DNA of 64,000 nt from Desulfosoma sp. (GTDB taxonomy: Bacteria; Desulfobacterota; Syntrophobacteria; Syntrophobacterales; DSM-9756): the NCBI GenBank assembly GCA_037481875.1, contig JBBFKY010000002.1, positions 415,264 through 479,263 of the forward strand, in the 5' to 3' direction. Position numbers and translations under genes: made by a program. Numbering within the stretch: the first letter of the stretch is position 1; every line of letters starts with the position of its first letter. Positions 53,443-64,000 of the stretch are shown one piece after another. The notes under the pieces are model-generated. The model had not been told where the DNA came from. It did not search any database and saw nothing but the letters and a program-made list of their open reading frames with translations.

Positions 53443-54627
53443 TTAAGGTTCAAAACGAACGGGTATCGTGATGGTGCGACCGTCCCGATCCAGTGTAAAC
53501 ACCATTTCGGGAACCGGCCTCTGAAAAAGCCGATGCAGACTTTCCAAATCCCTCACCGATTCTCCGTCCACCGCCATAATCATGTCCCCGGCTTGAAATC
53601 CGGCCAGGTCGGCTCGACTGCCCGAAACCACTTCCACCACGCGCAGCCCATCCCCCTTTGGATTCCGTTCCAGGCGCACACCCAGACGCCGCCCATGGCC
53701 TTCGAAAGGTTTTTGCGCAGCCGTTACCACCAAAAAATCGGCTACTTCCGCCGTGACCTGATCCGGTTCTTCATTAATCGCCACAGGTATGACCACGGCA
53801 TAACGATGTTCCACACGACGACGTACCCTTTCGGGAATCCCGAACCTTTGATTGACATGCCCTTTTCCGGCCAGCACCACCACTTGCCGAAAAGGTTCCT
53901 GCACCAACCACATCGCTATGGTTTCGGCCATGGTTTCATCCCACACAAGCTGCGCCTCATAGAAAGCTTGCAGATCTCGAATGCTTCCAGGCACATGAGC
54001 CTTGAATTCCTTTTCCACATAGGATCGATACACCTCATCGTCCAGATAAAAGTGTCCGGCAATGGAACGGCGTTCCTCAGCATTTAGAGACGCCAGGCCT
54101 TGTCGCGACACCTTTCGCACCACTGCCGGAGGTGCATTGAGAGCCCGCATGGGGATGGATTTTTCTCGAGCCAAGGCAAAAACGGGCCGATACAGGGCAA
54201 AAGGAAAGCCCCAGTTGTCTTCCCAAAGGACCGCATTCAGAAAAGATGTCTCATCGAGATTTCCTTCTACCCATCGGTCCAAATCGCCTTGGGTGGATCG
54301 CGGAAGCATTTCCACACCCACACCAATATTTTTGCCACGCTCCCAAAGTCCTTCCACAATACGTCGCTGAATTTCATGATCCGAAGCCCTTGCGTGGACT
54401 TCCCCCACATAGATGACCCGCATCTTTTCCAACTCCGAGAGCAATTCCTCGAAGCTGATTTTCTTTCCCGTATGAAGGTTCACGATGTCGTGAATCTCCG
54501 GCTTGAAGGGTAAAACATGGACGAACGCCCCTTCACGGGATTTCTCTAGACCCGCACAACCCCAAAGGCCAAACGAAACGCTTAGAAAAAAGATCAGAAT
54601 CAACCGCCTTCCTCTGTCATGTTTCAT
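53443..54627 (-). CDS. ChaN-family lipoprotein with C-terminal PDZ domain
   Basis: 394 residues from ATG 54627. A lipoprotein signal ends GLWGC (Cys24). The ChaN domain shows VIYVGEVHARASDHEIQRRI, EMLPRSTQGDLDRWVEGNL, WDETMAETIAMWLV and VVLAGKGHVNQRFGIP with the conserved His/Glu residues. A PDZ domain (about 320-390, GSRADLAGFQAGDMIMAVDG) closes it. ChaN binds heme dimers in Campylobacter; the PDZ addition is common in deltaproteobacteria. It starts 5 bases after the gene at 54633-55583. Confidence 0.88.
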   Translation of the reverse strand: MKHDRGRRLILIFFLSVSFGLWGCAGLEKSREGAFVHVLPFKPEIHDIVNLHTGKKISFEELLSELEKMRVIYVGEVHARASDHEIQRRIVEGLWERGKNIGVGVEMLPRSTQGDLDRWVEGNLDETSFLNAVLWEDNWGFPFALYRPVFALAREKSIPMRALNAPPAVVRKVSRQGLASLNAEERRSIAGHFYLDDEVYRSYVEKEFKAHVPGSIRDLQAFYEAQLVWDETMAETIAMWLVQEPFRQVVVLAGKGHVNQRFGIPERVRRRVEHRYAVVIPVAINEEPDQVTAEVADFLVVTAAQKPFEGHGRRLGVRLERNPKGDGLRVVEVVSGSRADLAGFQAGDMIMAVDGESVRDLESLHRLFQRPVPEMVFTLDRDGRTITIPVRFEP

Positions 54628-54632
54628 GGGTA

Positions 54633-55583
54633 TCACCTTTCTTTGGTGGAAAAACGTGTCAACACCTCTTGAGCTTCCTCGGAAGAGCTGCGACGCACCA
54701 AGGGCCATAGCTCTTGGCAGTCGTTCCATGAAAGATGCCGTGTCCATCGCCACGCTTCAGCTTCATTTTCCAAGTGCGGGTAAGCATCAACGGCGGGCAC
54801 CATTTCGTCCTTGTGTAACAACTTGATATAAATAAGGCTTTGCGCCGCAAGGCGATCTAGGTCAGGCCCGGTCATCTCGGGATGAAACACAAACAGCAAG
54901 GTCAGGCGATCTCCCGGGCCCAGAATCTGCTTCCTTTGTATTCGATGACGCGCCTGGTCTTGCAGAAGAAAGCAGGGTCGCACCCTAACCTTGCTTTTCA
55001 CAAGGCGTTGCAGCTCCACAAAAAACAGCCAGTGGATGTACCCACATTCCACATAAAGGGCTTTTGCTTTTTCTACCCAATGCATCACAGAACCCGCCCG
55101 CATGCGGTCCCTCAAAGCGAGGCGAGCGGCATCAGCCCTGGCAAAAGCCAACACCGCCTGCACAACTTCCGGAAAAGGCTTCGTAAGGGATATGGTGTAA
55201 AAATTCAAAAGAGCGGCTGTGGCGTCTCTTTCAACACGGTAGACGATGAAGGCCGGGTCGTCGGGCTTCAGTTCGTGAAAATCACCTCCAGCCGCAAAGA
55301 AGTCATGAAGCCGAAAGAGATGTTCCATGTAAGGCTCCACCTGCAGAAGCCTCTTACCTGCAGCATAAAGTCTGCGGTATAGGCGGCAACAGGCTTGAGC
55401 GAAACTTGGAAATTCGAAATCAGCTTGTGCCAGGTAAGTGTCTATGGATATTTCTCCACGCAGCATGGATTCAAACTCGGTCTGGGGCGGCTCTTCCAAG
55501 ATAATGACATCGTGGCCTTGCATAAGCGATTCCGCTTCTTGGAGCACTTCGAGGCGATGGGTGGAAAAGGCCACCGTGATCAC
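54633..55583 (-). CDS. Hypothetical protein, possibly TraB/ChaN-superfamily
   Basis: 316 residues, soluble, no signal peptide. The opening MITVAFSTHRLEVLQEAESL and HDVIILEEPPQ resembles the first strand and acidic motif of the TraB/TIKI/ChaN superfamily, but the other histidine motifs are not obvious. The middle is helical, rich in Tyr and Phe. It lies between mutY (4-base overlap) and the ChaN lipoprotein. I do not recognise it with certainty. Confidence 0.55.
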   Translation of the reverse strand: MITVAFSTHRLEVLQEAESLMQGHDVIILEEPPQTEFESMLRGEISIDTYLAQADFEFPSFAQACCRLYRRLYAAGKRLLQVEPYMEHLFRLHDFFAAGGDFHELKPDDPAFIVYRVERDATAALLNFYTISLTKPFPEVVQAVLAFARADAARLALRDRMRAGSVMHWVEKAKALYVECGYIHWLFFVELQRLVKSKVRVRPCFLLQDQARHRIQRKQILGPGDRLTLLFVFHPEMTGPDLDRLAAQSLIYIKLLHKDEMVPAVDAYPHLENEAEAWRWTRHLSWNDCQELWPLVRRSSSEEAQEVLTRFSTKER

Positions 55584-56707: not shown

Positions 56708-56917
56708 GATTCTTGCCTCCTTGCCTAGCTTAAGAACGCCAACAGGTCTTGGAAAGAGGTTTTCATGGCGTGAATGAGGTTCGATGCGTTGACATTTGCT
56801 TTCAAGCGTGTTGTTTAACGGAAACGATCCCATACATCTCCTTTAGGGATGAGGGATGGATACCACGTTTTCGCGAACCGAGAGACATGGACGCACTCTT
56901 CGGGGAGTACCTCACCC

Positions 56918-59422
56918 ATGATGCTCAAAAAACCCCTTTGGTACTGGGCCCTTACGCGCTGTCGAGCTCTTCAGGCAACGCTTTTAGCACTCATCGTTTT
57001 GACTGTCTTTTTTCGAGTCTTTCCTCTGGAGATGCAAAAACGGATCGTTAATGAAGCCATCCGTTTTGGAAAGATTCACACCCTTTTCTTGTATTGTGGT
57101 CTGTACCTGGGCGCCGTGCTGCTGGCAGGTCTTTTGAAATACGCCATCAATGTGCTTCAAGGATACGTCGGCCAAAAAATCCTCTATGAACTGCGCACAG
57201 GCCTCTACCGCCATATTCTGCGTCTTCCCTTACCCTTTTTCCGCCGAACCCCGCCCGGAATGGTCATTTCGTCCGTCACCGGAGAATTGGCTTCTGTGGG
57301 AGATTTTCTCGGGGGTGCCGTGGCGATTCCAGCCGTCAACGTGTTGACCTTGATCACTTTCGGCGTCTATATGTTCACCCTGAATCCGTTGCTGGCTGTC
57401 CTCAGTCTGACCGTGTATCCCATAGAAATCCTTGTCATTCCCATCTTGCAAAAACGATTTAATCAGATCAACAGCGAACGGGTGACCACCACGCGCAAAC
57501 TCAGCAGTGTGGTGGGAGAAGCCATCAGCGGCATTCAAGAAATTCATGCCAACGCCGGCTATCAGCTGGAGAGCCGGAAGATGGACCGCCTTGCTCAGAA
57601 GCTCTTTCAGTTGCGCCATCGTATGAATCTGTACCGCTATGGCATCAAGTTCTCCAACAATTTCTTTCAGAGCCTCGGCCCTTTTCTTCTCTTCCTTCTT
57701 GGGGGCTACTTCAGCATCACCGGCCGATTCAGCCTCGGCGCTCTTGTGGCTTTTCTTTCCGCTTACGAAAAGCTCTATGATCCTTGGAAGGAACTGATGG
57801 AATTCTATCAGGGTTACCAAGAGGCTCGCGTGGCGTATCGTCGTATTCAGGAAGCTTTTGATGTGGAACCTGAGTTTCCTTTGCTGCCCCAAGATCGTCC
57901 TCCTCTGGAACTGCAAGGTGCCATGACCGTGGAAGATTTGGTCTTTGAAGTGGAAGACCGTGTCCGGCTTCTGGATGGTGTCAGTCTTCGAGTGTCTCCC
58001 GGTGAGCGGTTGGCTTTGGTGGGACTTTCCGGAAGCGGCAAAAGCACCCTGGCGATGGTCATGGCTCAGTTGTACCGTTACGATCAAGGCCACGTGTATG
58101 TGGATCAATGGGAACTGAGGGATCTCACCAAGGCCGATGTTTCTCCGCATGTGGGATTTGTCTCCCAGTACCCTTTCATTTTTGACGGCACACTGAAAGA
58201 AAACATTATTTACGGTAGGCAATCGGCTCTTTTGCATTCCAATTCTGTGACGCCCGGTGAGGCAGACTCCCCGGACCTGCACGAGATTCTTCACGCCGTG
58301 GCAACGGTGGGACTTACGGAAGACGTACTCCGGTTCGGACTCAATTCCGTTTTGGACCCTGTCCGGGAACAGTTGCTGGGTGGAAAGATCGTTTCCTTGC
58401 GACGGCGGTTTCGGGATCGGTGGAGCGAAACACTGCAAGACACCATCGAATTTTTCGATATCAACCGTTTTCTCGACTACAGTTCCGTGGCTGTCAACAT
58501 TATCTTCGGGTACCCCGTGGAGGGAGGCCGGCCTTGCGAGCTGCTGCCGGCACGACCTCGTTTTCGCCGATTTCTCGAGGAAGTCGGCCTGGAAGAACCC
58601 CTGCTTCGGTTGGGTCTCGACGTGGTTCAGCGTACCGTGCCTCTTTTGCGCGACTTGCGGGATGACCCTTTCTTCTTTCGCCAATCTCCCATTCCCCTGG
58701 AAGAGATGGATCAGTTCATTGACATCTACGAGCACTACGGTTCGGCTTCCGTGGATCGGCTTCCTTCCTCCGTTCGAGAGAGCCTACTCGCGTTGGCGCT
58801 TCGTGTCGTTCCAGGGATTCACAAAATGGTTGTCATTCCCAGGGAACTGCGTGAGGCTATTCTTAAATCTCGATCCCAATTCAAAGCTTATTGCACGCAG
58901 CGCCAAGCCGACGCTTTTGTCTATTATTCAGAGACGGAATTTCTCGGCGGTCGAAGCCTCCTCGAAAACATTCTCTTCGGCCGTCTTAAGGAAGAAACCT
59001 CCTGGGCTTGGACTCGTATCACCGAAGCCGTCATTGGCCTGCTCAAACAAGAAAACCTGTATGACACGGTTTTGGAAATCGGGCTGGATTTTGAGGTGGG
59101 CAGCAAAGGGGATCGACTTTCCGGAGGTCAAAAACAAAAGGTTGGGATCGCTCGAGCCCTTCTGAAGAACCCACGCATCTTTATTCTCGATGAAGCAACA
59201 GCCAGTTTGGACATGGCTTCGCAAAACCGTATTCAACAGTGGCTCGATGAGGAACTTCGCGGAAAAGCCACGGTGATTTCCGTGGCCCATCGACTGGAAA
59301 CCATTCGCGACTATGATCAGATCGCGGTCATGAAAGCGGGCCGCATCGTGGAAATGGGACGTTATGACGAACTTCTGGAAAAGAAAGGGCTTCTCTATGA
59401 ACTGGTCCGCGGACACGAATAA
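56918..59422 (+). CDS. ABC exporter (membrane + ATPase) with a ~250-residue insertion inside the ATPase domain
   Basis: About 834 residues from ATG 56918 (frame open to 56849). The membrane domain of six helices fills the first ~290 residues (RTPPGMVISSVTGELASVGD). The ATPase has Walker A GLSGSGKSTLAMV and Q-loop FVSQYPFIFDGTLKENIIYG, but the signature LSGGQKQKVGIARALLKNP and Walker B IFILDEATASLD come ~320 residues later rather than ~60. A second ETEFLGGRSLLENILFGR just before the signature looks like a duplicate of the post-Q-loop segment, so the insert is bracketed by two copies. The substrate is unknown; the 3' end overlaps the next gene. Confidence 0.85.
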   Translation: MMLKKPLWYWALTRCRALQATLLALIVLTVFFRVFPLEMQKRIVNEAIRFGKIHTLFLYCGLYLGAVLLAGLLKYAINVLQGYVGQKILYELRTGLYRHILRLPLPFFRRTPPGMVISSVTGELASVGDFLGGAVAIPAVNVLTLITFGVYMFTLNPLLAVLSLTVYPIEILVIPILQKRFNQINSERVTTTRKLSSVVGEAISGIQEIHANAGYQLESRKMDRLAQKLFQLRHRMNLYRYGIKFSNNFFQSLGPFLLFLLGGYFSITGRFSLGALVAFLSAYEKLYDPWKELMEFYQGYQEARVAYRRIQEAFDVEPEFPLLPQDRPPLELQGAMTVEDLVFEVEDRVRLLDGVSLRVSPGERLALVGLSGSGKSTLAMVMAQLYRYDQGHVYVDQWELRDLTKADVSPHVGFVSQYPFIFDGTLKENIIYGRQSALLHSNSVTPGEADSPDLHEILHAVATVGLTEDVLRFGLNSVLDPVREQLLGGKIVSLRRRFRDRWSETLQDTIEFFDINRFLDYSSVAVNIIFGYPVEGGRPCELLPARPRFRRFLEEVGLEEPLLRLGLDVVQRTVPLLRDLRDDPFFFRQSPIPLEEMDQFIDIYEHYGSASVDRLPSSVRESLLALALRVVPGIHKMVVIPRELREAILKSRSQFKAYCTQRQADAFVYYSETEFLGGRSLLENILFGRLKEETSWAWTRITEAVIGLLKQENLYDTVLEIGLDFEVGSKGDRLSGGQKQKVGIARALLKNPRIFILDEATASLDMASQNRIQQWLDEELRGKATVISVAHRLETIRDYDQIAVMKAGRIVEMGRYDELLEKKGLLYELVRGHE

Positions 59423-59924
59423 CCGCACCATTGAAACGTCGCAGGACAGGCCAGCCGACACCTGCGAATTGGATCATAACCTGGAATGGCTGCGTCGCAC
59501 GGATGTGTTCTCGTCCATTCCGTTGGAACGTCTTCGCGTCTATGCCTTGATATGCGGTCGACGGCGTTTTCGACGCGGCGAATTCCTTTTTCGACAGGGA
59601 CAGCCCGACGATAAGGGGTATATTCTGGTATCTGGAAAGGTGCAGATGGTTCGCCAATATGAAAATCACTCGGTGATCATCCATGATCTGGAACCGGGAG
59701 CTTTTTTCGGCGGGCTGGCTCTGCTGGCGGATATTCGACGTCTTTTCGGAGCTCGTGCCGCCACCGATGTGGAAGTGATTTACATCGAACGAGAAACCTT
59801 TCGAAAGATACTCCGCCAATTCCCGGAACTCACCGAAAAGATTCTGGATGTGATGATCCGGCGTATCGTGCTCATGGAAGAAAAGATTTTGGAACGTCAC
59901 CTGCACGAATGTGTGCTGGTCTAA
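59397..59924 (+). CDS. Cyclic nucleotide-binding-like domain protein without DNA-binding domain
   Basis: 175 residues from ATG 59397, which overlaps the ABC gene by 26 bases. The single CNMP-fold domain spans VFSSIPLERLRVYALICGRR to VEVIYIERETFRKILRQF. The phosphate cassette reads FFGGLALLADIRRLFGARA where FGE...RSA is canonical, so the Glu and the Ser are lost and cyclic nucleotide binding is doubtful. No HTH follows. It may tune the transporter (inference from overlap). Confidence 0.82.
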   Translation: MNWSADTNNRTIETSQDRPADTCELDHNLEWLRRTDVFSSIPLERLRVYALICGRRRFRRGEFLFRQGQPDDKGYILVSGKVQMVRQYENHSVIIHDLEPGAFFGGLALLADIRRLFGARAATDVEVIYIERETFRKILRQFPELTEKILDVMIRRIVLMEEKILERHLHECVLV

Positions 59925-59961: not shown

Positions 59962-60801
59962 ATGCCACACCAAAGTGAATCCCCCATTGTAGAAAATATG
60001 TTCATTGACGAACTGGAAAGCTATCGAGCCGCTCATCGAGAAAAGGACTACGAACTGATTGATGTAAGGGAACCGGCGGAATACGCCGCCGGTCATATTC
60101 CCGGAGCCCGGCTGATGCCTTTGAGCCGCTTTGAGAAGCTTTTGAACAACCTGGAACCCGGCAAGGAACTGCTTTTTTATTGCTCCAGTGGAGGCCGTTC
60201 CATGACCGCCGCCATGTTGGCCGCCGAAAGCGGGCTCAAACCGCGCCGTGTGGTCAACTTGCAAGGGGGCTACATGGCTTGGGACGGCAAGGAACTTTTT
60301 GATTTTCCCAAAGTGCGCCTGCTTGCCGACAAGTCGTCTCTGGTGGAAATGCTTCAAGAGGCCATAAACTTGGAAAAAGGGGCCTATCGTTTCTATGCAC
60401 TGTCGTCTTTAAAAGAATCCGCTTGGGTGGAAACGGCTCAAAAACTGGTTCAATGGGAACGTCGGCACGCTCAAGCCGTTTATCATCTGTTGGAAGCATC
60501 CCCAGGCAAAGAGCCGCTTCCTCCCTTTGAGGACTTATTTGAGGCCCTGCCGGGAAACATTTTGGAAGGTGGCGAAGCTTTGGAAGAGGCTCTGAAAAGG
60601 CTGGAAAACCTGCCCGTTTCTTCTTGTTTTGCCTTTGCCGAACTGGCTTTGGACATCGAATATCGAGCCTACGATCTGTATCTTAATGCAGCGGCGGTTA
60701 GTAAGGATGCCACCGCCTCGGCCTTGCTTCGGGATCTTGCGGAACAGGAAAAAGCCCATATTCGTTTTATTGCTAGCGTTTTCGCGGCCTGTAAACCCTA
60801 G
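59962..60801 (+). CDS. Rhodanese / ferritin-like diiron fusion protein
   Basis: 279 residues. The rhodanese domain (about 10-110) has YELIDVREPAEYAAGHIPGA and the active-site loop LLFYCSSGGRSMTAAM. The second half is a four-helix ferritin-like domain with Glu and ExxH candidates in EAINLEKGAYRFY, WERRHAQAVYH, ELALDIEYRAYDLY and EQEKAHIRFI, a rubrerythrin-like diiron site. It combines sulfur transfer with a peroxide- or O2-reactive diiron centre. Last gene of the plus-strand three-gene unit. Confidence 0.88.
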   Translation: MPHQSESPIVENMFIDELESYRAAHREKDYELIDVREPAEYAAGHIPGARLMPLSRFEKLLNNLEPGKELLFYCSSGGRSMTAAMLAAESGLKPRRVVNLQGGYMAWDGKELFDFPKVRLLADKSSLVEMLQEAINLEKGAYRFYALSSLKESAWVETAQKLVQWERRHAQAVYHLLEASPGKEPLPPFEDLFEALPGNILEGGEALEEALKRLENLPVSSCFAFAELALDIEYRAYDLYLNAAAVSKDATASALLRDLAEQEKAHIRFIASVFAACKP

Positions 60802-60858: not shown

Positions 60859-62198
60859 GTGTAAAAAGTTTTGTGTAAATTTTAAGTGCTAGAAAAAAAA
60901 GCGCTTTTCCTTTACAGAGGGGGTGACCCAATAACACCTCGAAGAAAGGCAAAGCGCCTATGAAGATCGAACTGAGTGTGTCTGAGGTTGTGGCGATTTT
61001 CAATGAAATTCAGTGTCAGCCTGAGAAGCTTTTTGAAATGCTTCGCCTAGACATACGCACAGTGGTGGGTCGCTCTTTGTGCGAGATGATGAAGGCGGAA
61101 CTGACCTAATTTTTAGGAAGAGAGCCTTATGAGAGGAAGGGAGATTCTTCCAATGATCGAAATGGGTCTTACGAGCGCCGTTTGACGATGAAAAGCATCG
61201 GCGAAGTACGCGTAAAGGTCCCTCGGGATCGGCTGGGTGAGTCTCAGACCAAGGTCATTCCTCGTTGTCAGCAATATGAGAAAGAAATCGGCAAGGATCT
61301 GTGTTTGATGTTTCTTGGGGGTTTCAGCACTCGAACGTTGGCGATGATGTCAGAGCGTCTCATAGGTCGAAAAATTTCCCATACAAACGTCAGTGAAGCC
61401 AAAAGGGAGCTTACGGAAGCTGTTGAAAAGTGGGGAATCGGGATCTTTCTCAAGAGTCTGTCAAATATCTTTTTATCGACGGCGTCAACTTTGAGATGCG
61501 CCTTGTGATTCCATCGAAAAAGTTTCTGTCCTTGTTGTGATTTGAGTGAGACGAACCAGAGAATGGTTCAGTGCTTGCAAGCAGGCGATAAAGAATCGGC
61601 GTCGACGTGGAGGGAGGTTCTTAAAGACCTTAAAAGACGCGGCTTTGACCCATCAAAGGTGCAGCTGGGAATCATGAATGGGCTACCTGGTCTTGAGAAG
61701 GTTTTCAAAGAGGAATTTCCCAAGGCCAAGGTGCAGCGATGCCAGGTGCATGTGGCGAGAAATGTTCTGGCCAAAGTGCCAAGAAAATACAAGCAGGCTG
61801 TGGCCGACCACATGCGCTCCATCTTCTACGCTTCTTCGAAAGACAAGGCCGGTGAGCTTTTCATGGAATTCAAAACAAAGTGGGAAAAAGATCTACCCTC
61901 CGCCGTCGCCTGTTTGGAAAAGGGCCTGGAATCCTGCCTGACTTTCTTCAACTTTCCTGAAGAAGAATGGATTTCGCTGAGAACGACCAACATCATCGAA
62001 AGGCTCAACAAGGAATTTCGATGGAGAACAAGACCCATGGAGATCCTGGCAGGAGAACGGTCCTGCTACACTCTGCTTGCCTTCATTGCCTTTAAAATGG
62101 AAGTCCACTGGAGGTCTAACCCTCTGGGAAAAGTGCGAAAAAACTTGCCAATATGGCAACGGCTCGAAGGCAGAAATTTTACACAAAATGCTTGACAC
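60859..62198 (+). mobile_element. Decayed IS256-family insertion sequence
   Basis: Imperfect ~25-base terminal inverted repeats: left GTGTAAAAAGTTTTGTGTAA (60859-) and right, on the minus strand, GTGTCAAGCATTTTGTGTAA (from 62198). Between them lies one transposase frame with several lesions. The 8-base flanks (AAGCGGTG left, TACCGATA right) do not match, so no target duplication is seen; a rearrangement or deletion has probably occurred next to the element. The right end abuts a glycosyltransferase that has lost its 5' end. Confidence 0.85.
60960..62195 (+). pseudogene. IS256-family transposase, inactivated
   Basis: Translation from ATG 60960 gives MKIELSVSEVVAIFNEIQCQ up to KAELT, then TAA (61107-61109), and continues in frame as FLGREPYERKGDSSNDRNGS and YERRLTMKSIGEVRVKVPRD. 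A frameshift follows near 61445 (the expected KYLFIDGVNFEMRLVIPS is in another frame) and a further break near 61530. The rest, from 61542, is intact: MNGLPGLEKVFKEEFPKAKV, RCQVHVARN and TNIIERLNKEFRWRTRPM, the DDE-type core. The product would not be functional. Confidence 0.88.
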
Positions 62199-63213
62199 TA
62201 CCGATATCTTGATCCATGCAGTGGAGTCAGGGTTGATTAGGGATTATCGCAATCGTGGCGCTTTAATATATGCGATGGTTCATGATTTACTGCCTGTGCG
62301 GATGCCGGAAGTCTTTCCTCCAGGCGCAGATCAAATATTTGCTCTATGGCTCAAGGCAGTCTCTACATTTGATGGAGCGATCTGTGTTTCCAGGGCTGTA
62401 GCGAATGATCTGCGTGCACGGTTGGATGAGCATGTGCCAGCAATCAACAAGCGCCGTCTTCCATATTTTATAGAATGGTCCCATCATGGGGCGGATATTG
62501 TCAATTCGGCGCCTACCAGGGGTATGCCGCATGACGCGGAGGTAACTCTCCAAAAGCTCAAGTCTCGTGTTACTTTTCTCATGGTAGGCACCATAGAGCC
62601 GCGCAAGGCCTACCTGCAAACGATTCATGCCTTCGATCAACTTTGGGCGAACGGTCTCGATGTCAATTTAGTCATTGTGGGTCATGAAGGATGGAAACAT
62701 GTGTCCCACGACATGCGCCGTGACATCCCACAAACCATCGAACTTCTGCGTTCCCATCCTGAACGAGACAATCGCCTTTTTTGGCTTGAAGGTATTAGCG
62801 ATGAATATTTGGAAAAGGTCTATGCAGCAAGCACTTGTCTCCTTGCTGCTTCCTATGGTGAAGGCTTTGGATTGCCCCTTATCGAGGCTGCACAGCACAA
62901 ACTCCCTATTATCGCCAGGAATATTCCTTTATTCCGCGAGGTGGTTGGGGAACATGCGTTCTATTTCGAAGCAGCATCACCGGGCGAGTTGACTCAGTCG
63001 GTTAGTACCTGGCTCGATCAATACCGCCGAGGGGAGCATCCGAAGTCGGATAACCTACCATGGCTGACATGGGCAGAGAGCGCCAAAAGGCTCTGTGAAA
63101 TTGTGCTCAGTGTAGCGTCCGAACAAAAAAAGAAAGCATATGGAGAAAGAGATAAAAATTATGGAAAAGCAGATAAAAATTGGCAATTCGGTCTATACGG
63201 TTTTCTCGGATGA
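62188..63213 (+). CDS. Glycosyltransferase (GT4-type), 5'-truncated by the IS
   Basis: About 341 residues from ATG 62188, which lies inside the IS inverted repeat; the true N-terminus has been lost. Visible are FDGAICVSRAVANDLRARLD, FLMVGTIEPRKAYLQTIHAF, NRLFWLEGISDEYLEKVYAA and the EX7E motif in SYGEGFGLPLIEAAQHKLPI, all GT4 features of the C-terminal half. The N-terminal Rossmann domain is partly missing, so activity is doubtful. It overlaps the FkbM gene by about 70 bases. It probably belongs to a surface-polysaccharide locus. Confidence 0.75.
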   Translation: MLDTTDILIHAVESGLIRDYRNRGALIYAMVHDLLPVRMPEVFPPGADQIFALWLKAVSTFDGAICVSRAVANDLRARLDEHVPAINKRRLPYFIEWSHHGADIVNSAPTRGMPHDAEVTLQKLKSRVTFLMVGTIEPRKAYLQTIHAFDQLWANGLDVNLVIVGHEGWKHVSHDMRRDIPQTIELLRSHPERDNRLFWLEGISDEYLEKVYAASTCLLAASYGEGFGLPLIEAAQHKLPIIARNIPLFREVVGEHAFYFEAASPGELTQSVSTWLDQYRRGEHPKSDNLPWLTWAESAKRLCEIVLSVASEQKKKAYGERDKNYGKADKNWQFGLYGFLG

Positions 63214-64000
63214 CAATTACCTTGACGCCATGGGGAACGACTTCGAGCCGCACATGGTACAGCTGTTTCGTGCCCTGATTGGCCCGGATGATGTGGTGGC
63301 TGATATTGGTGCAAACATCGGCCTAACCGCAATCCTGTTTTCCTCGCTTGCGAAGCACACGTATGCCTTTGAGCCCAGCCCATCGACCTTTTCCATCCTG
63401 TTGGGTAATCTGGCCAAAAACAGCATTGCAAATGTGGAAGCGATCAATCTTGGCCTCGGGGACAAGGAAGAAGTCACGACCATAACGTTCGCTTATAACA
63501 ATCGCTCGGGCGGCTATGTCAGCGAGAAGATCCGTCCGGAGACAGGACACGTCAGCGAGGAAATCTGTATTGACACACTCGACCATTTCTTTTCTTCCAA
63601 GGCGCCTGCACCAACTTTTTTGAAGATCGACGTTGAGGGCTTCGAGCTGAACGTAATTCGGGGGGGGGCGTTGTTCCTTCAACGCGTCCGTCCGGTCGTG
63701 GTGATGGAAATGAATCACTTCTGCCTTGATGTTCTACAGCGAGTTACAGTTCCCGATTTTCTTGACTTCATGCGCTCCGTTTTCCCCTATCTGTATGCCA
63801 TTGATACCGACAACAGAACCATTGTCGATCTGCATGTGCCTGACAAGGCCTACATGGTGATGCACGAGCATGTGGTCAAACATCGGTTTCCGAACATTGT
63901 CGGCGGCTTCGGTTCCGAGCTCAAAGAAAAACTACAGAGACTTGAAGCAGCAGCAATCTTCAAAACGCCGCTCTTATCGAGACCAATCGGAAAAATCACC
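63140..64000 (+). CDS. FkbM-family methyltransferase, 3' end outside window
   Basis: Open to the window edge (287 codons). VVADIGANIGLTAILFSS is SAM motif I, followed by YAFEPSPSTFSILLGNLA, ICIDTLDHFFSSK and FLKIDVEGFELNVIRGG, the FkbM signature order. FkbM enzymes methylate sugar hydroxyls in polysaccharides or antibiotics. ATG 63140 or 63161 could be the start; neither has a strong site. The base composition looks AT-richer than the rest of the window, fitting a laterally acquired island. Confidence 0.85.
   Translation, partial: MEKEIKIMEKQIKIGNSVYTVFSDDNYLDAMGNDFEPHMVQLFRALIGPDDVVADIGANIGLTAILFSSLAKHTYAFEPSPSTFSILLGNLAKNSIANVEAINLGLGDKEEVTTITFAYNNRSGGYVSEKIRPETGHVSEEICIDTLDHFFSSKAPAPTFLKIDVEGFELNVIRGGALFLQRVRPVVVMEMNHFCLDVLQRVTVPDFLDFMRSVFPYLYAIDTDNRTIVDLHVPDKAYMVMHEHVVKHRFPNIVGGFGSELKEKLQRLEAAAIFKTPLLSRPIGKIT

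Follow-up and report, generated by a model that had tools for sequence, protein, structure and literature searches.

How the nucleotide site communicates with the transmembrane domain (TMD), by way of the Q-loop, the helical subdomain and the coupling helices, is a central question for ABC exporters. The exporter fold has precedents for use as a channel (CFTR) or a regulator (SUR), both of which still bind ATP, and degenerate halves are common among heterodimeric ABC exporters, where they usually keep Walker A and bind ATP. Rad50/SMC proteins carry a long insert between the Q-loop and the signature. UvrA, RecF and RecN, which are non-transport ABC ATPases, are likewise described as having long inserts at this place in PMC3688454.

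The window examined here (the whole stretch of 64,000 nucleotides from Desulfosoma sp.) encodes a protein that by its fold and motifs is an ABC exporter with an unusual nucleotide-binding domain (NBD) and a dedicated partner. Its family has naturally tripled exactly the coupling segment, has a CRP-like partner and, in one branch, retains the segment without the ATPase motifs, which makes the link between nucleotide site and TMD testable apart from hydrolysis. A literature search, in which few subscription journals were covered, returned no description of an insert-ABC exporter family.

The ABC gene and its enlarged helical subdomain

The gene lies within an ORF that is open from 56849 to 59422 on the + strand and ends with the stop codon at 59420-59422. 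Its likely start is the ATG at 56918, the same place at which the family alignment begins, while residue numbers refer to P0001, i.e., the ORF counted from 56849. The product (56918..59422, +) is a TMD-NBD half-transporter of 834 aa, in which an ABC_membrane domain (PF00664, 2.5e-32; TMD core at 57038..57763, +) is followed by an ABC_tran NBD (PF00005, 2.1e-28). As in the rest of its clade, Walker A, Q-loop, LSGGQ, Walker B with its Glu and the H-loop are all present. On the + strand, these correspond to an intact Walker A GLSGSGKST (58022..58048, residues 392-400), the Q-loop Gln (58166-58168, residue 440), and an intact signature LSGGQ (59117..59131, residues 757-761), Walker B IFILDEA (59177..59197, residues 777-783) and H-loop VAHR (59282..59293, residues 812-815). 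The NCBIfam model for the MsbA lipid A exporter (TIGR02203) scored 317.8 bits, below its curated cut-off of 602. From Q-loop to signature the protein spans 317 residues, about 250 above the usual distance, and the motif positions within 56918-59422 thus bear out the insert of ~250 residues on which the original prediction was built.

The AlphaFold2 (AF2) monomer model of the whole ABC protein has a mean pLDDT of 87.5 and a pTM of 0.83, and compared with ABC exporters it reaches a Z of about 32, with the exporter fold recovered. Almost all of the insert is modelled at pLDDT > 80, apart from a single low loop, as a compact lobe whose helices are short, none exceeding 22 residues. VIA-align placed model residues 320-832 on the TAP1 NBD over 248/251 residues (1.8 A, Z 32.5); the predicted NBD thus lacks nothing, and the insert comes on top of it. 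The central part of the insert together with its flanking helices (residues 500-690), when modelled alone, gave a pLDDT of 91 and a pTM of 0.86. For this central part, Foldseek returned no PDB neighbours at E <= 0.001 and the best VIA-align match had a Z of 2.8, a result that does not in itself prove a new fold.

The insert had been described as bracketed by a duplicated segment. The two copies named, GTLKENIIYGR and RSLLENILFGR, both exist, but a third, SSVAVNIIFGY, lies midway, so that the segment is tripled and not merely bracketing. The first copy, R1 (58148..58396, +), contains the Q-loop Gln and GTLKENIIYGR (58187-58219, residues 447-457), and the third, R3 (58865..59116, +), contains RSLLENILFGR (58952-58984, residues 702-712) and continues into the x-loop and the signature; both rest on the family alignment and hhalign. 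The central copy, R2 (58397..58864, +), supported by hhalign, the fold of R2 alone and an insert-profile match, combines SSVAVNIIFGY (58481-58513, residues 545-555) with unique helices and is without the Q-loop Gln.

In the window sequence alone the repeat is weak, with 4-7 of 300 shuffles scoring as high for each pair of copies, which are ~20% identical to each other. Family profiles of R1, R2 and R3, built from relatives aligned over the region, were matched by hhalign for R2-R3 (98.6%, 5e-16, score 86.7), R1-R3 (96.9%, 1.6e-10, score 53.3) and R1-R2 (92.5%, 4.9e-7, score 40.6), compared with a score of at most 17.5 in a column-shuffle control (60 per pair). Against other segments of the same protein the R2 profile scored ~9-15, with the exception of a segment covering the beginning of R1, which scored 26.8. 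In a 66-row alignment the invariant positions include Arg518 and Asn550 in R2 and Arg675 and Asn707 in R3, with a spacing of 32 both times. The R2 part of the insert profile also aligns with the Q-loop segment native to a 603-residue ABC exporter of ordinary type from another phylum (ISFVSQEQFLFNMSIMDNIRLG), so the Q-loop-to-helix segment of the host itself is the origin of at least part of the insert. A second, degenerate NBD is rejected, since neither Pfam nor NCBIfam gives a match in the insert and the segment that R2 resembles is a Q-loop one rather than a P-loop. The NBD thus carries a genuine elaboration, folded and conserved, and neither of the outcomes that would have undone the original prediction, a degenerate second NBD or a fusion artefact, was found.

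Searches with the R1-R3 profile or the protein located the insert in 35/59 relatives, in 20/297 genomes of the window's phylum, in 29/398 genomes of the phylum of a Salinisphaera genome and in 2/52 of the phylum of a SAR324 genome; the full insert was found in 0/299 genomes of the phylum of a Neobacillus genome. Every full match falls in an ABC-type open frame. The window's genome has a single copy. Named carriers are Desulfosoma, Halodesulfovibrio and other Desulfobacterota, and plasmid carriers are found in Rhizobium, Sinorhizobium, Ensifer, Ruegeria and Azospirillum.

The cNMP-domain partner and the neighbourhood

The ABC gene is followed by a cNMP-domain gene (59397..59924, +; PF00027, 1.3e-21), which starts at M12 of the ORF 59364-59924 and overlaps the end of the ABC gene, stop codon included, by 26 nt. 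The overlapping downstream gene with a degenerate phosphate cassette was predicted correctly: the cassette reads FFGGLALLADIRRLF, in which Gly replaces the canonical Glu and the Arg is kept. In the 186 aa protein PF00027 is the sole domain found, with no DNA-binding domain or C-terminal helix-turn-helix.

Among the 88 insert-ABC proteins with neighbourhoods, a cNMP domain is encoded directly downstream on the same strand in 73 and fused at the ABC C-terminus in 7 (80/88 together), and a cNMP gene lies upstream in 0/88. Of the eight others, two stop at a contig edge or close to it and another is a fragment, while five loci (L032, L128, L129, L144 and L181) have room downstream and no nearby cNMP gene. 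As a control, in five genomes a cNMP gene was found within ~1.5 kb downstream of 7/7 insert-ABCs, compared to 0/22 other ABC_membrane genes. The cNMP gene is a near-obligatory partner, and the ABC and cNMP module is well supported. The fused forms sit in two separate branches of the tree, and a partner ATG overlapping the ABC stop is seen in 49/52 loci of the window's clade versus 2/21 of the other clade described below. A crude partial mirror-tree analysis (partial distance correlation) indicated that the partner follows the TMD and the NBD core, with no signal for R2. At one locus (L157, genome G004), the pair is followed, further downstream, by a second gene with a cNMP domain (contig C52:134376-134630).

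The next gene (59962..60801, +) does encode a fusion of rhodanese with a ferritin-like domain, but its place beside the pair is confined to the window's genus and family, and it does not belong to the conserved module, contrary to what had been suggested. At loci with intact ATPase motifs, genes for SpoIIE phosphatase (11 loci), HATPase_c_2 (12) and STAS (16) often occur within three genes of the pair and mostly not further away, which suggests a link with partner-switching signalling; they cluster beside the pair at, e.g., L166, L171, L036 and L138. Further downstream in the window, a Mutator-family (PF00872) transposase gene (61182-62195) is split across two frames, probably an inactivated insertion sequence, and after it come glycosyltransferase (PF00534) and FkbM methyltransferase genes (62077-64000). 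In Sinorhizobium medicae an FkbM gene likewise lies downstream of the pair, and its resemblance to the window is probably a coincidence. Upstream of the ABC gene, 53443-54753 encodes a ChaN/Tiki haem-binding domain joined to a PDZ domain, and 54633-55583 is a conserved-looking ORF with no Pfam match, a relative of which lies near the pair in L156.

A second clade that has lost the ATPase motifs

Motif tallies divide the family into two clades. Motifs are intact in the window's clade, which comprises 57 sequences, the named ones being Desulfobacterota. The second clade (30 proteins in the tree, monophyletic with a support of 1.0, named members Alphaproteobacteria) has LSGGQ in 0/30 and is missing the Q-loop Gln in 29/30. 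Walker A, Walker B and the H-loop are mostly lost as well, with some members retaining single residues, for instance the Lys of Walker A or the His of the H-loop, and further members beyond the 30 in the tree show the same motif loss. Full-length frames and low NG86 dN/dS values (~0.03-0.34 by region, 0.04-0.11 for R2) rule out that these are decaying pseudogenes. Genes for glycosyltransferases often adjoin this clade (14 loci), and its rhizobial members L108, L111, L112, L071 and L184 have two or three of them alongside.

Mean identity of the core from signature to H-loop drops from 0.65 in the motif-intact clade to 0.33 in the second clade, whereas that of R2/R3 is equal in both (0.38/0.37 vs. 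0.38/0.38). Thus, it is the repeats and the partner, and not the catalytic core, that selection keeps in both clades. The cNMP cassettes differ in the opposite sense. Tallied by pattern, with a few rows mis-parsed, the cassette is canonical in the pseudo-ATPase clade (Glu/Asp in 28/28, Arg in 27/28) and degenerate in the motif-intact clade, as in the window (Glu in 4/51, Gly in 35, Arg in 44/51). L145 is an exception, with an intact NBD together with a canonical cassette. Because this is essentially one phylogenetic contrast, and in view of L145, a coupling of the NBD and cassette losses is best treated as hypothetical, and the two may coincide by chance. As judged from its motifs, the second clade appears to consist of pseudo-ATPases, perhaps under cyclic-nucleotide control.

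Proposed mechanism and comparison with known systems

We propose that the window protein is an MsbA/Sav1866-like exporter whose NBD helical subdomain has been enlarged through tandem duplication of the Q-loop-to-helix segment. The working Q-loop is that of R1, with the x-loop and LSGGQ placed after R3, so the link between the nucleotide site and the coupling region, as read from sequence and model, runs through the extra lobe of ~250 residues. With the CRP-like cNMP protein from the overlapping gene it would form a two-component machine. The association of the two genes is conserved, and we infer a physical contact, in which the cNMP protein would bind the ABC protein and control it. Since the ATPase motifs are complete and the cassette is degenerate, an ATP-driven exporter is the most likely role for the window's clade; its cycle would be tuned by, or would require, a subunit of cNMP fold that has lost its response to cAMP or cGMP. 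In the second clade, a pseudo-ATPase NBD together with a canonical cassette suggests that the roles may be reversed: input would have passed to the ligand-binding cNMP subunit, with the ABC part serving as a membrane scaffold, channel or receptor under ligand control. Both clades retain the cNMP protein as well as the TMD and the repeats, so the repeats probably have their role in assembly or in relaying a signal, and not in ATP hydrolysis as such. We give even chances to this reading as a whole, namely an ABC exporter served by a CRP-like subunit of its own, with a helical subdomain enlarged by tandem duplication, of which a second clade turned into a ligand-controlled pseudo-ATPase. More tentatively, and with the chances rather against it, the second clade (Alphaproteobacteria and some genomes of the SAR324 phylum) could consist of ATP-independent, cyclic-nucleotide-controlled membrane proteins, in which the tripled segment would relay the state of a cAMP/cGMP-binding subunit to the TMD, the window's family being their ATP-driven relative.

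The original prediction held that the insert could gate ATPase activity. In that case the ATPase rate would be set by the extra copies alone, as a mechanical brake or clutch between the Q-loop, the coupling helices and the signature, with the cNMP protein acting elsewhere. The insert's position between Q-loop and signature suits such a role, as does the divergence of the partner, which tracks the NBD core and the TMD but not R2. However, the repeats are equally conserved in the clade without Walker A, Walker B, signature and H-loop, where there is nothing to brake, and we consider this explanation unlikely. Because the sister clade keeps the insert after losing its ATPase motifs, gating is doubtful as the insert's whole story. 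This same retention bears on the idea that the duplication has no dedicated function, being an expansion that the structure tolerated and that drift fixed before it became locked in. Such an origin would fit copies that have diverged to ~20% identity and an R2 that, taken alone, has no recognised fold, but the repeats are conserved across phyla and under purifying selection, and R518/N550 and R675/N707 are invariant at matching places in two copies, all of which makes it very improbable.

Another explanation concerns the second clade, whose proteins might be the inactive halves of heterodimers with a canonical ABC exporter encoded elsewhere, so that ATP would still drive the complex. The abundance of degenerate halves among heterodimeric exporters favours it, and an ABC gene lies nearby at a few loci (L127, L133), but no ABC exporter is a conserved neighbour, and all motifs decay in this clade, unlike in the usual heterodimer halves with their Walker A and bound ATP; we find it quite unlikely. 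That the whole construct is an ORF artefact or a chance gene fusion has nothing in its favour except the weak single-sequence repeat score, and it is already refuted by the conserved full-length frames, unbroken across dozens of genomes with dN/dS well below 1, so that its probability is next to nil.

The family would also offer an example, in bacteria, of an ABC membrane protein that is a pseudo-ATPase, and possibly a target of cyclic-nucleotide signalling other than transcription factors, rhizobia included. The retention of repeats and partner without the catalytic motifs in a related branch suggests an undescribed kind of regulated, or even motor-less, ABC protein. With the homodimeric MsbA, Sav1866 and TAP exporters the family shares the TMD fold, the domain order, all NBD motifs (in the window's clade) and an NBD core that fits TAP1 at 1.8 A, but it has ~250 extra residues, i.e., two further Q-loop/helix copies, and a cNMP partner. 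It shares the topological place of insertion with UvrA, RecF, RecN and Rad50 (for the first three, as given in PMC3688454). Unlike the UvrA/RecN/Rad50 type, the window protein is a membrane exporter with a PF00664 TMD and not soluble, and compared with UvrA, RecF, RecN and Rad50/SMC, its insert is made of repeats of a host segment, which the model shows as a compact lobe of short helices. The partner has the PF00027 domain of CRP/FNR-type proteins and, in the second clade, also their canonical cassette, but in the window no DNA-binding domain was found in it, the cassette Glu is lost in the window's clade, and the protein is tied or fused to an ABC exporter. Finally, in contrast to CFTR and SUR, the second clade is bacterial and has lost the NBD motifs altogether.
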